64,000 nt of DNA. Source: Cohaesibacter haloalkalitolerans (GTDB taxonomy: Bacteria; Pseudomonadota; Alphaproteobacteria; Rhizobiales; Cohaesibacteraceae). Shown here piece by piece: positions 55,144-59,865 of this stretch (positions within the stretch are counted from its first letter, which is position 1; each line of letters starts with the position of its first letter). The stretch is taken from the NCBI RefSeq assembly GCF_003574655.1, contig NZ_QNUM01000006.1, positions 62,001-126,000 of the forward strand. Direction: 5' to 3'. Below the pieces are notes generated by a model. That model had not been told where the DNA came from, ran no database searches, and saw only the letters and a program-made list of their open reading frames with translations. Made by a program: the position numbers and the translations under genes.

Positions 55144-56763
55144 ATGACAGATACCAGAACACCTCTGCTCGACATCAATGATCTCAACGTGCATTTCAGC
55201 ACCAACTCCGACAAGGATATTCATGCGGTGCGCGGCATCCACATGCATATCGAAAAGGGCGAAACCGTTGCCGTGGTGGGCGAATCCGGCTCTGGCAAGA
55301 GCCAGGTGATGATGTCCGCAATGGGCCTTCTGGCCGACAATGGCTGGGCGACGGGTTCGGTCCGATATGAAGGCCAGGAGATCCTGGGTCTCTCCCGGCG
55401 CAAGCTCAACAGCTACCGCGGTTCGAAGATGACGATGATCTTCCAGGAGCCGATGACCTCGCTCGACCCGCTCTACACGATCGGCCGCCAGATCTGCGAA
55501 CCGTTGCAGGTGCACCAGAAAATGGATCGCAAGCGCGCAATGGCGCGGGCACTGGAGCTTCTTGAACTGGTTGGCATTCCGGATCCGAAAAACCGGCTCA
55601 AGTCCTATCCGCATGAAATGTCCGGCGGCCAGCGCCAGCGCGTCATGATCGCCATGGCTTTGGCCAACAACCCGGACCTGCTGATCGCCGACGAGCCGAC
55701 GACGGCCCTTGATGTGACCATTCAGGCCCAGATTCTGCAGCTGCTCGCCGAACTGCAAAAGAAACTGGGTATGGCCATTCTCTTCATCACCCACGATCTC
55801 AACATCGTGCGACGCTTTGCCGACCGCGTCTATGTCATGAAGACCGGTGAAGTGGTCGAGGAAGGCAATACCAAGACCATCTTCGACAACCCGCAGCATG
55901 AATATACGCAAATGCTGTTGTCGGCCGAGCCGGAGGGCCGGAAGCCCGCTCCCGCTGCCGATGCTCCCATCCTGCTTGAGGGTAAGGGCGTCAACGTGAC
56001 CTTCAACATCACTTCAGGCGCCTTTGGTACCCAGAAGCACGAGTTGCGCGCCGTCAACAATGTCGATCTCCGCCTGCATCAGGGCCAGACCATTGGCATT
56101 GTTGGGGAATCCGGATCAGGCAAGTCCACTCTCGGTCGCGCCCTGTTGCGACTGACCAATGTCAGCGGCGAAGTGATGCTTGATGGCGAGGATATGAGCC
56201 ATATTTCCAAGGAAGCCATGCGGGAACACAGAAAACGCCTGCAGTTGGTATTTCAGGATCCGTTCGGCTCGCTTTCCCCGCGCATGATGGTCGGCCAGAT
56301 CATCACCGAGGGGTTGCTTGTCCATCATCCGGAACTGTCGGCAAGGGAGCGCGACCTGCGGGCCATTGAGGCTCTGGAGGAAGTGCAACTTGACCCGTCC
56401 ATGCGCAACCGCTATCCGCATGAATTCTCGGGTGGTCAGCGCCAGCGTATCGCAATTGCCCGCGCCATGGTGCTCAAACCGCGCATCGTGGTGCTGGATG
56501 AGCCAACATCGGCCCTTGACCGGTCGGTGCAGAAGCAGATCGTCGAGTTGCTGCGCGATTTGCAGGAGAAGAACAATCTGTCCTATCTCTTCATCTCGCA
56601 TGACCTTTCTGTGGTTCGTGCCATGTCGGATTACGTCATGGTGATGAAGCAGGGGGTGATTGTCGAGGAAGGGCTGACGGAGCAGATTTTCGATGCGCCT
56701 CGGGAGCTTTATACCAAGCAGCTGATGGCGGCAGCGTTTGATCTGGAGCCGATCTCGGCCTGA
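55144..56763 (+). CDS. Fused dual ATP-binding protein (OppD-OppF type) of the oligopeptide transporter
   Basis: A 539-aa cytoplasmic ATPase with two ABC domains in one chain. Domain 1: Walker [10 protein letters not shown] (about 44), signature MSGGQRQRV (about 160), Walker [13 protein letters not shown]. Domain 2: Walker [10 protein letters not shown] (about 322), signature FSGGQRQRI (about 430), Walker [13 protein letters not shown]. Both have H-loops (FITHDL, FISHDL), so both should be active. The usual OppD C-terminal Cys motif of an iron-sulfur site is absent between the domains. ATG 55144 is 9 nt after AGGAGG. It closes the operon with a strong terminator. Confidence 0.94.
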
Positions 56764-56792
56764 TCGTTTTCCTCTCCGATCAAGATACTGGA

Positions 56793-56822
56793 AAAAGGGC
56801 GTTAAATCAGACGCCCTTTTTT
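56793..56822 (+). terminator. Terminator of the oligopeptide transporter operon
   Basis: Perfect 10-bp stem AAAAGGGCGT / ACGCCCTTTT with a TAAATCAG-type loop and a T run. Confidence 0.92.
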
Positions 56823-57125
56823 CTTGAGGCTGAGGAAGGGAGCCCGGGCATTCTCTTCGCCGTTTGATAGGTCTGAATGATGCAGTTAGAGGAGGTTTGC
56901 TACGCGGCTGCGGATGGGGAAAGGGGGGCGAAAGGAAGAAGCGAGTCGGCAACAGGAAACAGTAACTCGGCGAATCAATCTTAAAGTCTCGATTTCAGCG
57001 CTTCGCACTGTGGAAAACACAGCCATAAGGAACAGATTTGAGGTGGATACGACTAATTTACACAGTTACATCGATTGAAAGACTGTCACGCCTCTTTTCA
57101 ACCGGAAAAACCAATGATATAAATT

Positions 57126-57240
57126 CCGTCACGGAGCAAGCACTACCTGTCAGGTGTCGCAAGCAGTAAAGCTTAGACAGGTAATCCAACTCGCCCCGTG
57201 ACGGCAGCGTCCATCATGTGTCGCAAGCAGTTCGATGGAC
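57126..57240 (+). other. Candidate structured RNA or repeat element with two loops carrying the same sequence
   Basis: Three perfect stems: CCGTCACGG / CCGTGACGG (57126-57134 with 57196-57204, 9 bp), enclosing TACCTGTC / GACAGGTA (57144-57151 with 57176-57183, 8 bp), and next to them GTCCATC / GATGGAC (57209-57215 with 57234-57240, 7 bp). The 24-nt and 18-nt loops of the second and third stems both contain GTGTCGCAAGCAGT (57154-57167 and 57218-57231), though the stems differ. Conserved loops on different but fully paired stems suggest selection on the folded form, either in RNA or as extruded DNA. Strand is assigned only by analogy with tetR. Confidence 0.55.
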
Positions 57241-57293
57241 AGACTGTAACCGATCCAATCCGTTGACGCGGTATTAGAGCGGTATCTCTTTGA

Positions 57294-57331
57294 TGTGATG
57301 TGTCTGAAATTCGCAGTTTCAGCACATCACA
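57294..57331. repeat. Long inverted repeat (stem-loop)
   Basis: TGTGATGTG-T-CTGAAA (57294-57309) pairs with TTTCAGCACATCACA (57317-57331): 15 bp with one bulged T and a 7-nt loop TTCGCAG. No T run on either side, so not a standard terminator. Confidence 0.75.
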
Positions 57332-57697
57332 CATAGAATTCATTTTCCCACACAATTTCAAATACTTGGTGACGTATCATTTGATGCGGCACGTATTTTT
57401 ATTTGTGCTTTCCGATGAGTGCTCCGCTTTTCTGATCTGAACTGATGCCTTGGGCTTCGCCCTATTCAACACCAATCGATCTGACTAAAAAGACATTACT
57501 AACTCACCGACTTTGTAAGATCAAAATAGACAAAATTACAGCAACTGTCAATCTTTCAGGTGAAAGAAATTTACAGAAATCCGCTTTTCGTTTAGTGTTA
57601 TTCCAGAAAAAAACGTCATCGCGATCAACAAAAATTGATCGAAGAGTGACAACGCCTTTTATTGCAAACAGAGGAAGCACATTCCCGTCGCAGGATG

Positions 57698-57707
57698 TGT
57701 CGCAAGC
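57698..57707 (+). promoter_or_regulatory. TGTCGCAAGC motif in front of tetR
   Basis: Third copy of the loop motif, ending 2 nt before the tetR ATG, where the ribosome-binding site should be. Confidence 0.5.
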
Positions 57708-57709
57708 GA

Positions 57710-58285
57710 ATGGTAGATACAAAAGAAAAAGTTATACAGGCTGCTGAAGAACTGATTTCTCGCTACGGATATAACCGTACCTCCATGACAGACGTTGCAA
57801 AACAGGCCGGTTTGTCCAGGCAGACTGTTTATGCCGTGTTTGCCAACAAGGAGGATCTTTATGCGGAAACGTCTTACTATGTTTTCAAGAAGCACCTGAC
57901 AAAGGTTCGTGAAGATATTACCCATTGCTCGTCTCTGCGCGATCAGTTGCAGATCTATTTCGAGCATCTTGTCATTGGCCCGTTTCTGTTTCTGCAGAAG
58001 CATCCGGAAGCCAGAACGCTCTGGGCAGATGAGTCGATGAACAATCATCCGGCCATCACCAAGTTGAAGCAGGAGCATCGCCAGTTTCTGGCCGAGCTCC
58101 TTGTTCCCTACACCAAATATATCGGCGCGTCCGGTCAATGTCCGGCACATATGGCGGACTTTATCATCATGACCTGCCGCGAAATGAAATGTGGCAAGGC
58201 CTCTTCGCTTGAAGAATTGCGCAAGCTTCTGGATACGCTGACGGCGTCCGTTCTGGCGTTGGCCTCGCCCGGCGAAGCTGCATGA
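57710..58285 (+). CDS. TetR/AcrR-family transcriptional regulator
   Basis: A 191-aa regulator. N-terminal helix-turn-helix VIQAAEELISRYGYNRTSMTDVAKQAGLSRQTVYAVFANKEDLYAE (about 7-52) is a textbook TetR domain. The helical C-terminal part (about 60-185) has no recognisable ligand motif. Its base composition is lower in GC than that of the surrounding genes. ATG 57710 gives a normal N-terminus; ATG 57695 adds five residues, and neither has a clear Shine-Dalgarno sequence because the TGTCGCAAGC motif occupies that place. Possible targets are itself and the convergent porin gene, inferred only from the shared motif. Confidence 0.88.
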   Translation: MVDTKEKVIQAAEELISRYGYNRTSMTDVAKQAGLSRQTVYAVFANKEDLYAETSYYVFKKHLTKVREDITHCSSLRDQLQIYFEHLVIGPFLFLQKHPEARTLWADESMNNHPAITKLKQEHRQFLAELLVPYTKYIGASGQCPAHMADFIIMTCREMKCGKASSLEELRKLLDTLTASVLALASPGEAA

Positions 58286-58513: not shown

Positions 58514-59653
58514 TTAGAAGTCGCGCTGCAGACGCAGTTTGCCTTCCCATACTTCGGTGTCTGCAGAGGTTGCATAGTCGAAGTCGCGGTCGGTGTACTG
58601 GATACCAGCGATGATCTTCAGGTTTTTAACCGGCTTGTAGCCAACTTCACCAGATACGGTGTAGAAGTCATAGTCGTAGTCGGTCGTGCCTTTGTCGTCA
58701 TATTCGCCATAGCCACCAGCAACGATTGCCCACAGGTTGTCAGCAAAAGCGTATTTCAAGCTTGCGGATACACCATACAGTTCGTTGAGCTCGTAGTCGG
58801 TGCCGTCCATGGAAGCGTCGGACATGTAGGTGCTGTTGCCAACGCCGTTCCATGCCATTGCGCCTTTGGTGTAGAAACCGTTCAGGGCAAGGTTGGAGCC
58901 TTCAGACAGCATGTCGAGGTTGAAGAGACCACCAGCTGCTACGGAATAGGCAACTTCGTTGTCGTAGATTGCAGAGTCATAACGAGCCTGGGAAACCAGA
59001 CCGCCAACAGACACAGAACCCCAAGCCTGGTCAACTTTCAAGCGAGCAACCAGGGTAGGCAGGGTCTGGCCAGCAAAGCCGTTGCCAGGAAGGATACCGT
59101 TCACGTCGCCGAGGTGCTTGTTGTTTGCGATGCCGAGGGTGGCGGTTACGCCATTGCCCAGAGCCATGTTGTAGCCGATCTGGCCAGCTTCGGTATCGCC
59201 GAGGTCATAGTCGCCGCCGTACATGTCGCCAGCGTAGTCAACAATGCCTGCAGTGGTCAGGTAACCAGCATAGAAACCGCCGAGGGTCATGTATGCACGC
59301 TTCAGGTCGATGTTGCCATCTTCGCCCTTGCCAACGTCGCCTTCAAAGCGAACGTGGGAAGACAGGGTTCCAAATTCGGTTTCTTCTTTAGCTTCGAAGT
59401 TAACCTGGCCACGAGCCCAGAGGTCGAATTTCTGGGTAGCGCGGTCGCCTTCGTTGAAGGTTGCTTCAGTACGAGCATAACCGCTGATCTTCAGGCAGGT
59501 ATCGGTGCCTGGGATGAAGAAATAGCCAGCGCCGTATGCGTCGCAAACTTTTACGTAATCTACAGGTTCTGCTACCGGCAGATCGGCTGCCTGAGCGGCA
59601 CCGCCAGCTACGAGAGCTGCTGCAGAACCGAGGATGAGGCTCTTGATGTTCAT
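58514..59653 (-). CDS. Outer-membrane porin, Porin_2 family (rhizobial type)
   Basis: A 379-aa beta-barrel porin. Signal peptide MNIKSLILGSAAALVAGGAAQA ends at about residue 22. The mature start ADLPVAEPVDYVKVCDAYGAGYFFIPGTDTCLKISGYAR is the hallmark of Hyphomicrobiales porins, with the two Cys of the conserved 'VCDAYGxGxFYIPGTxTCL' block. Alternating aromatic strands follow to the end, which is FDYATSADTEVWEGKLRLQRDF with a C-terminal Phe for BamA recognition. ATG 59653 has AGGG 8 nt upstream. Likely a major general-diffusion porin; the coding region has a slightly lower GC and strongly biased codon use, as in highly expressed genes. Confidence 0.95.
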   Translation of the reverse strand: MNIKSLILGSAAALVAGGAAQAADLPVAEPVDYVKVCDAYGAGYFFIPGTDTCLKISGYARTEATFNEGDRATQKFDLWARGQVNFEAKEETEFGTLSSHVRFEGDVGKGEDGNIDLKRAYMTLGGFYAGYLTTAGIVDYAGDMYGGDYDLGDTEAGQIGYNMALGNGVTATLGIANNKHLGDVNGILPGNGFAGQTLPTLVARLKVDQAWGSVSVGGLVSQARYDSAIYDNEVAYSVAAGGLFNLDMLSEGSNLALNGFYTKGAMAWNGVGNSTYMSDASMDGTDYELNELYGVSASLKYAFADNLWAIVAGGYGEYDDKGTTDYDYDFYTVSGEVGYKPVKNLKIIAGIQYTDRDFDYATSADTEVWEGKLRLQRDF

Positions 59654-59678: not shown

Positions 59679-59688
59679 GCTTGCGACA
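59679..59688 (-). promoter_or_regulatory. TGTCGCAAGC motif in the porin leader
   Basis: On the porin sense strand TGTCGCAAGC ends 25 nt before the start codon, inside the presumed mRNA leader. Confidence 0.5.
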
Positions 59689-59855: not shown

Positions 59856-59865
59856 TCTTGCGACA
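59856..59865 (-). promoter_or_regulatory. TGTCGCAAG motif upstream of the porin promoter
   Basis: On the porin sense strand TGTCGCAAGA, 9 of 10 bases identical with the other copies, about 200 bp upstream of the start codon. Confidence 0.4.

Follow-up and report, generated by a model that had tools for sequence, protein, structure and literature searches.

The trans-encoded small RNA (sRNA) MicF of the enterobacteria is described as a repressor of porin synthesis, which also represses the lrp and cpxR mRNAs (PMC9988348). In Listeria, the multicopy sRNA LhrC is described as having redundant target-binding motifs, two of them in loops, and its UCCC motifs as acting on a G-rich site upstream of the start codon (PMC4132741). 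In Campylobacter, CJnc190 is presented as a trans-acting sRNA derived from a longer structured precursor, with CJnc180 as its cis-encoded antagonist (PMC8687705), and in the alpha-rhizobia EcpR1 is presented as a trans-sRNA with a role in the cell cycle (PMC4414408). Redundant loop motifs and cis-encoded antagonists are therefore features of a kind of regulator that is already known.

The locus described here, from Cohaesibacter haloalkalitolerans, probably encodes a trans-acting base-pairing sRNA on the minus strand, linked to a TetR-family gene and directed at porins and at tetR itself. The likeness to MicF is that of a trans-encoded sRNA acting on porin mRNAs and on a regulator mRNA, these being predicted targets in the present case (compared with MicF as described in PMC9988348). 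Unlike MicF, the Cohaesibacter RNA has its seed in two hairpin loops, and the TetR gene is both linked to it and a predicted target. It resembles LhrC in its redundant loop motifs (as these are described in PMC4132741), and differs from it in that a seed of 13-14 nt matches predicted mRNA 5' ends and the start region of tetR. Compared by description, the likeness to CJnc190/CJnc180 would be that of a trans-acting sRNA derived from a longer structured precursor; CJnc190 has another target, and an RNA from the opposite strand is only a possibility here (PMC8687705). EcpR1, again compared by description, belongs to the same bacterial class and has another role (PMC4414408). Within the literature searched, the RNA family and its pairing with tetR appear to be new: the search found no small-RNA paper on Cohaesibacter, and among the matches listed for TetR, porin and sRNA the genus was absent from the titles.

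The window is the whole stretch of 64,000 nucleotides that was analysed. It comes from a genome of 5.0 Mb in 24 contigs (G000, the host genome; other G numbers denote compared genomes). The hairpin region is flanked by the end of an ABC-transporter gene at 56763 and the start of tetR at 57710, and downstream of tetR there is a porin gene on the minus strand, with its ATG at 59653. The sequence-only reading had described a cluster of stem-loops with a repeated loop at 57075-57331, and all of its elements were found again when stems and loop were checked (Table 1); the loop sequence GTGTCGCAAGCAGT is present twice, at 57154-57167 and 57218-57231. Folding of 57060-57340 as RNA gives -92.1 kcal/mol for the plus strand (z -5.56) and -111.8 kcal/mol for the minus strand (z -6.46), and in both cases 0 of 200 shuffles match. 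The same reading knew of no named RNA family with this layout, and the Rfam scan agrees, with nothing at the locus at gathering score. The sole gathering-level match in the window is a tRNA, and the six weaker matches in 56750-57760 are every one far under their gathering scores.

Table 1. Features of the locus, in window coordinates, with the basis or remark for each.
Feature	Position	Strand	Basis or remark
Putative structured sRNA core: 5' hairpin P2, then long hairpin P1/P1a	57126..57250	-	Covariation (10 genomes), G·U polarity
Outer stem P1	57126..57204 (57126-57140/57190-57204)	-	15-16 bp on minus strand including G·U pairs
Hairpin P1a, loop UAAGCUUUACUGCUUGCGACACCU = predicted seed 2	57144..57183	-	ACUGCUUGCGACA unchanged in 10/10 rows
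Inner stem TACCTGTC/GACAGGTA	57144-57151/57176-57183		Part of P1a
Hairpin P2 (GUCCAUC/GAUGGAC), loop with ACUGCUUGCGACAC = predicted seed 1	57209..57240	-	Seed unchanged in 10/10 rows
Stem GTCCATC/GATGGAC	57209-57215/57234-57240		Part of P2
Hairpins P2b and P3 (upstream in the minus-strand sense), perhaps belonging to the 5' part of the transcript	57247..57335	-	Covariation
Long hairpin	about 57291-57330		
Predicted sRNA promoter TTGACA-N17-TATTTT	57523..57551	-	Only minus-strand match of promoter scan
Dyad TTAC(A)-N13-(T)GTAA, candidate TetR operator	57495..57519	.	Just downstream of promoter
Second similar dyad, past sRNA 3' end	57065..57089	.	9 of 12 here; perfect in G014
Predicted tetR-leader target: GTCGCA 57687-57692, TGTCGCAAGC 57698-57707	57687..57707	+	Two bases before ATG
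TetR-family regulator, divergent from sRNA	57710..58285	+	Pfam TetR_N 1.6e-14
Porin gene (Porin_2), predicted target	58514..59653	-	Pfam 2.3e-47
Predicted target TGTCGCAAGC in adjacent porin leader	59679..59688	-	Start 35 nt before ATG; kept in orthologues

Of 61 genomes searched with blastn, 11 had a match: G000, nine genomes of the same genus and one from another family with a match of 23 bases. When named genomes were scanned with the loop sequence, the only matches were Cohaesibacter celericrescens H1304 and C. marisflavi CGMCC 1.9157. In ten Cohaesibacter copies the stems differ, while both loops keep ACTGCTTGCGACA unchanged. This is seen in G015, where the outer stem, the inner stem and hairpin P2 are largely of other sequence with their pairing intact, and where the P1a loop retains ACUGCUUGCGACA despite the altered stem.

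The comparison of genomes supports the structure quantitatively. Over nine distinct rows, 97.1% of 376 cells are paired (92.3 in shuffles), two-sided changes occur at 11 pairs (2.9 on average in shuffles) and the covariation score is 0.240 (0.149 in shuffles), with 0 of 500 shuffles reaching any of the three; the rows are mostly close relatives, with an effective number of 1.07. The number of pair types is not above that of shuffles (101/500). In the outer stem, 7 of the 16 counted pairs show two-sided changes. A slid structure is only 31-48% paired, which is a lenient control because the consensus structure was taken from the same alignment, and the double changes are stronger evidence. The hairpin cluster is in this sense a conserved RNA structure outside coding sequence. 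The earlier suggestion of a structured RNA with conserved accessible loops is therefore supported in its structural part, and the compensatory changes in stems around fixed loops for which it had proposed to look are present in the aligned relatives; the strand is another matter, taken up below. A covariance model (R1) run against 150 relatives recovered its 10 building sequences, with a single match in each of nine genomes, and also matched a second locus in G015, on contig C42 (E 0.86). Four further matches in other families, with E of 0.02-0.98, we take for chance.

Inverted repeats look alike on both strands, but a G·U pair is lost in the complement. For the minus strand of the nine closest rows, the 378 cells divide into 312 Watson-Crick, 64 G·U, 0 A·C and 2 other; with G015 included, the count is 341 Watson-Crick, 66 G·U, 2 A·C, 9 other and 2 gaps out of 420. 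The counted structure had been chosen by minus-strand folding, and the count was therefore repeated for the 36 Watson-Crick pairs of G000: across the eight remaining rows, 7 go to G·U, 0 to A·C and 1 to U·U. With the plus-strand consensus structure, in contrast, four pairs decay to A·C over the nine rows and none to G·U. In all ten copies the minus-strand fold is also the more stable one; the margin is 8-15 kcal/mol in nine of them and 0.8 in G015. Because stem changes give G·U on the minus strand and A·C on the plus strand, the RNA is most likely read from the minus strand, from 57250 to 57126, and its loops would therefore read ACUGCUUGCGACA(C), the antisense of the shared motif. The sequence-only reading had taken the plus strand, and the cell counts speak against that choice. 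For P2b and P3, polarity does not decide the strand: the nine-row alignment gives 180 Watson-Crick, 5 G·U, 2 A·C and 11 other cells out of 198, and the consensus energies are -29.6 for plus and -25.0 for minus.

The 10-mer core of the motif, TGTCGCAAGC (UGUCGCAAGC), occurs 23 times in G000, compared with 6 times for the reversed control. Beyond the two loops that had been noticed before, exact copies lie in the tetR leader, at 57698, and in the adjacent porin leader, at 59688 (-). Five of the 23 sites are clearly outside coding sequence: two are the loops, and three are in leaders, those of tetR, of the adjacent porin and of a second, major porin; the remaining ones are in open frames, the frames at two sites (L018, L019) being ambiguous. 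The longer motif TGTCGCAAGCAGT (UGUCGCAAGCAGU) has 41 occurrences among 17 relatives, and its reversed form has 2. The 41 comprise 18 loops of the sRNA, 13 major porin leaders and 10 other places (three gltA flanks, two extra hairpins in G015 and five mostly in open frames). A looser pattern, TGTCGCAAG[AGT], has 41 sites in G000 against 26 in the control; the 40 loci inspected are mostly coding frames, the forty-first site being within the window, and L208, L212 and L213 precede possible genes. We note separately that tandem TGTCGCAAGGGCC repeats occur near an open-frame start at G000:C17:171990-172012. A gapped duplex ranking of the 54 open reading frames in the window was uninformative, because long bulged duplexes dominate it: tetR was absent from the best 14, and the adjacent porin came first, but at a different upstream near-copy, GGTGTCGCAAGATG at 59865 (-), about 210 nt before its ATG.

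The longest match is to the major porin, whose gene lies elsewhere in the genome (leader L020, G000:C17:161745). The loop is antisense to UGUCGCAAGCAG at the predicted 5' end of its mRNA. The leader sequence TTGTCGCAAGCAG is present in 18 of 18 Cohaesibacter genomes, of which 12 of 12 were found by porin protein search alone and six more through the motif. It comes directly after a conserved TATTGT and begins about 80 nt before the ATG; the predicted transcription start is placed by the likeness of this TATTGT to a -10 element. After it follows a hairpin, GCAGUGA/UCACUGC, which is GCAGA/UCUGC in G005, G008, G010 and G017. The longest ungapped complement between sRNA and leader, G·U allowed, is 16 nt, a length reached in 0 of 300 shuffles. 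A conserved seed is in this way complementary to the leader of a gene encoded at another place. It is worth adding that this leader is almost invariant, with a compensatory change in its hairpin, also in genomes where the sRNA is absent.

For tetR, the longest complement counted in the same way is 14 nt (3/300 shuffles). Of the 11 tetR leaders, 8 have the motif, doubled in seven; in G004 one GTCGCA is kept and the other site reads TGTTGCAAGC, and the leaders of G011 and of both G015 loci are without it. All nine orthologous loci of the adjacent porin have TGTCGCAAGCTTA in the leader, with its start 34-36 nt ahead of the ATG. The 10-nt complement is not beyond shuffles (59/300; duplex energy 116/300), and thus only conservation speaks for this target. 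In G015, the porin on contig C7 reads CGTCGCAAGC, and the porin on C51, next to a tetR, has lost the motif.

A check blind to the motif was made by finding porins by protein in 14 genomes, which gave 26 matches, of which 25 leaders were examined (one of G019 was left out). The exact motif is in 12 major and 4 adjacent porins, and GTCGCAAG in the C7 porin of G015 and in one porin of G019; leaders without the motif are those of G015 C51, G017 C24, two porins of G018 and three of G019. With this check, the genomes that have the motif and no detected RNA rose from six to eight, which slightly lowered our confidence in the sRNA reading. G019 belongs to another genus of the same family, and its GTCGCAAG lies about 83 nt before a possible ATG. 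Its presence there hints that the leader motif is older than the genus. At E<=1e-8, the five of 12 Cohaesibacter genomes that have the RNA contain two or three such porins, and the seven without it have one (two in G017); the module therefore comes with a second porin.

Of 20 genomes searched, ten have tetR at E<=1e-15, and they are the very ten that carry the RNA; the comparison ignores kinship, and one of the genomes outside the ten, G005, is only 64% complete. A minus-strand TTGACA-N17-TATnnn is present in 11 of 11 tetR-linked loci, 259-399 nt upstream of the loop, as the predicted promoter, and nine of the eleven loci are of one lineage. By itself, the promoter scan reports sites no more numerous than in shuffles. 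The dyad at the predicted promoter resembles ATTACA-N12/13-TGTAAT and scores 9-12 of 12 in the 11 tetR-linked loci; a score of at least 10 is expected 0.17 times per 890 bp in mononucleotide shuffles, and most loci have other sites of score 9. We infer that this dyad is a TetR operator on the sRNA promoter. A terminator is common, though not universal, in trans-acting base-pairing sRNAs; in 56760-57760 there are 0 Rho-independent terminator-like sites. On the other side of the sRNA, the block at 57055-57125 (+), TTTACAC.ATTACA...TGAAA..TTGTA...TTTTCA-N17-TATAAA, is kept in nine genomes and resembles a promoter facing the sRNA 3' side.

The G015 genome carries two more TetR proteins (38% and 37% identical), each encoded divergently from a hairpin. 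These hairpins, on C42 and C51, have the same loop on unrelated stems, and on C51 sRNA(-), tetR(+) and porin(-) follow one another as they do in the window. The C42 hairpin lies about 60 nt before a gene for a small secreted protein, on the same strand.

The first alternative to be weighed keeps the RNA and reverses its role: a plus-strand sponge or decoy, of the kind that the sequence-only reading had suggested, which presents UGUCGCAAGCAGU and titrates a protein or sRNA binding the porin and tetR leaders. The leader sequence itself does sit in the two loops, a conserved promoter-like TTTTCA-N17-TATAAA can be read by eye before 57126 on the plus strand, and the leader motif is kept beyond the genomes that bear the sRNA. 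On the plus strand, however, the stem changes are A·C mismatches, where the minus strand has G·U, and the search for a conserved partner of complementary sequence found none. The leader of gltA (citrate synthase) was considered as such a partner and ruled out: an exact antimotif stands before gltA in G002, G003 and G009, and the 16 aligned leaders keep just GCTTGC, and that partly (17 loci were taken, and G018 was dropped since its start was not recognised). In most of the genus the gltA leaders do have in common a conserved TCATACTTTTGTAGG element and a AAAAATCA.ATACCGAA stretch, which may be a separate regulatory element. We consider a decoy unlikely; since the minus-strand loops are antisense to the shared motif, the RNA is more likely a regulator.

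A second alternative, which we rate as rather improbable, has both strands transcribed, with the minus-strand RNA as porin regulator and a plus-strand RNA from about 57095-57125 as its cis-encoded antagonist. It would account for the conservation, in nine rows, of a block that lies outside the RNA stem, and CJnc190 and CJnc180 as described offer a precedent (PMC8687705). Against it, the block is absent by eye before the C7 copy of G015, and the promoter scan does not report the plus-strand promoter.

The possibility that there is no RNA at all, and that the dyads are TetR operators (a duplicated DNA-binding site, in the wording of the sequence-only reading), is very unlikely. Operator-like dyads do exist, at 57495-57519 and 57065-57089, but in the hairpins it is the arms that change, with compensation, and the loop that is invariant, which is the reverse of what an operator would show, and the strand asymmetry has no explanation at the level of DNA. 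A mobile repeat of REP or MITE-like type, which intergenic hairpins and three loci in G015 might recall, is hardly credible given one R1 match per genome in nine genomes, a constant order of tetR and porin, and unrelated stems at the G015 loci.

The base-pairing sRNA on the minus strand is thus the reading that we retain, and one observation in particular speaks against it. R1 found no RNA in G005, G006, G007, G008, G010, G012, G016 and G017, where the major-porin motif is equally conserved. No convincing exact antimotif hairpin outside coding frames was seen among all TGTCGCAAGC sites of G012 (10/10) and G006 (18/18), nor among subsets of sites in G007, G015, G010, G016, G017, G005 and G008 (30 loci, 40 regions). 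The nearest candidate, in G012, is a 5-bp stem round the antimotif and was rejected, as it is inside a coding-like open frame of 120 residues. A second pattern, CTTGTCGCAA, has 92 places in 4 genomes, and 3 of the 30 inspected are outside long frames. These genomes may have a divergent sRNA; otherwise the motif serves some other purpose, which the sRNA exploits.

From these comparisons we infer a course of events that runs from transcription and pairing in the cell to repression, TetR binding and a ligand. Transcription of the sRNA would run on the minus strand, in the direction away from tetR, and the promoter at 57551-57523 would probably drive it; two hairpin loops of its structured part, 57250 to 57126, would display ACUGCUUGCGACA(C) as an antisense seed. 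Pairing of this seed is predicted at three places: UGUCGCAAGCAG at the predicted 5' end of the major porin mRNA, UGUCGCAAGC in the leader of the neighbouring porin, and GUGUCGCAAGC, which lies two bases ahead of the start codon of tetR. At tetR, pairing would cover the start region and block translation; at the major porin, it would invade the leader hairpin GCAGUGA/UCACUGC. Most likely the pairing represses, activation through a changed 5' end being possible. TetR, in turn, probably acts on this promoter by way of the dyad that follows it; a ligand freeing TetR would then switch the sRNA on and bring porin synthesis down. MicF is induced by stress regulators. The ligand-triggered shut-off of porin proposed here would be comparable in effect to that of MicF on ompF, as described in PMC9988348.

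It is tempting, though doubtful, to go further and see a self-contained, double-negative switch of outer-membrane permeability, in which TetR represses the sRNA at the promoter dyad, the sRNA represses tetR by pairing beside its start codon, and the seed loop is the selected unit. If true, the output of the switch would be porin shut-off, of the major porin (16-nt match) more than of the adjacent one (10-nt match). The module would travel with its second porin, stems would have been wholly replaced round the seed loop, and the pair of tetR and hairpin would exist as independent modules in one species; the G015 copies suggest that the seed loop is kept while the scaffold is replaced.

More generally, the locus illustrates how G·U versus A·C polarity can by itself indicate the strand of an RNA. 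The RNA would be an sRNA family that has no Rfam match, and the locus a compact arrangement of a one-component sensor (TetR), an sRNA and a porin target next to one another. For the organism, it predicts how the porins of Cohaesibacter are controlled.
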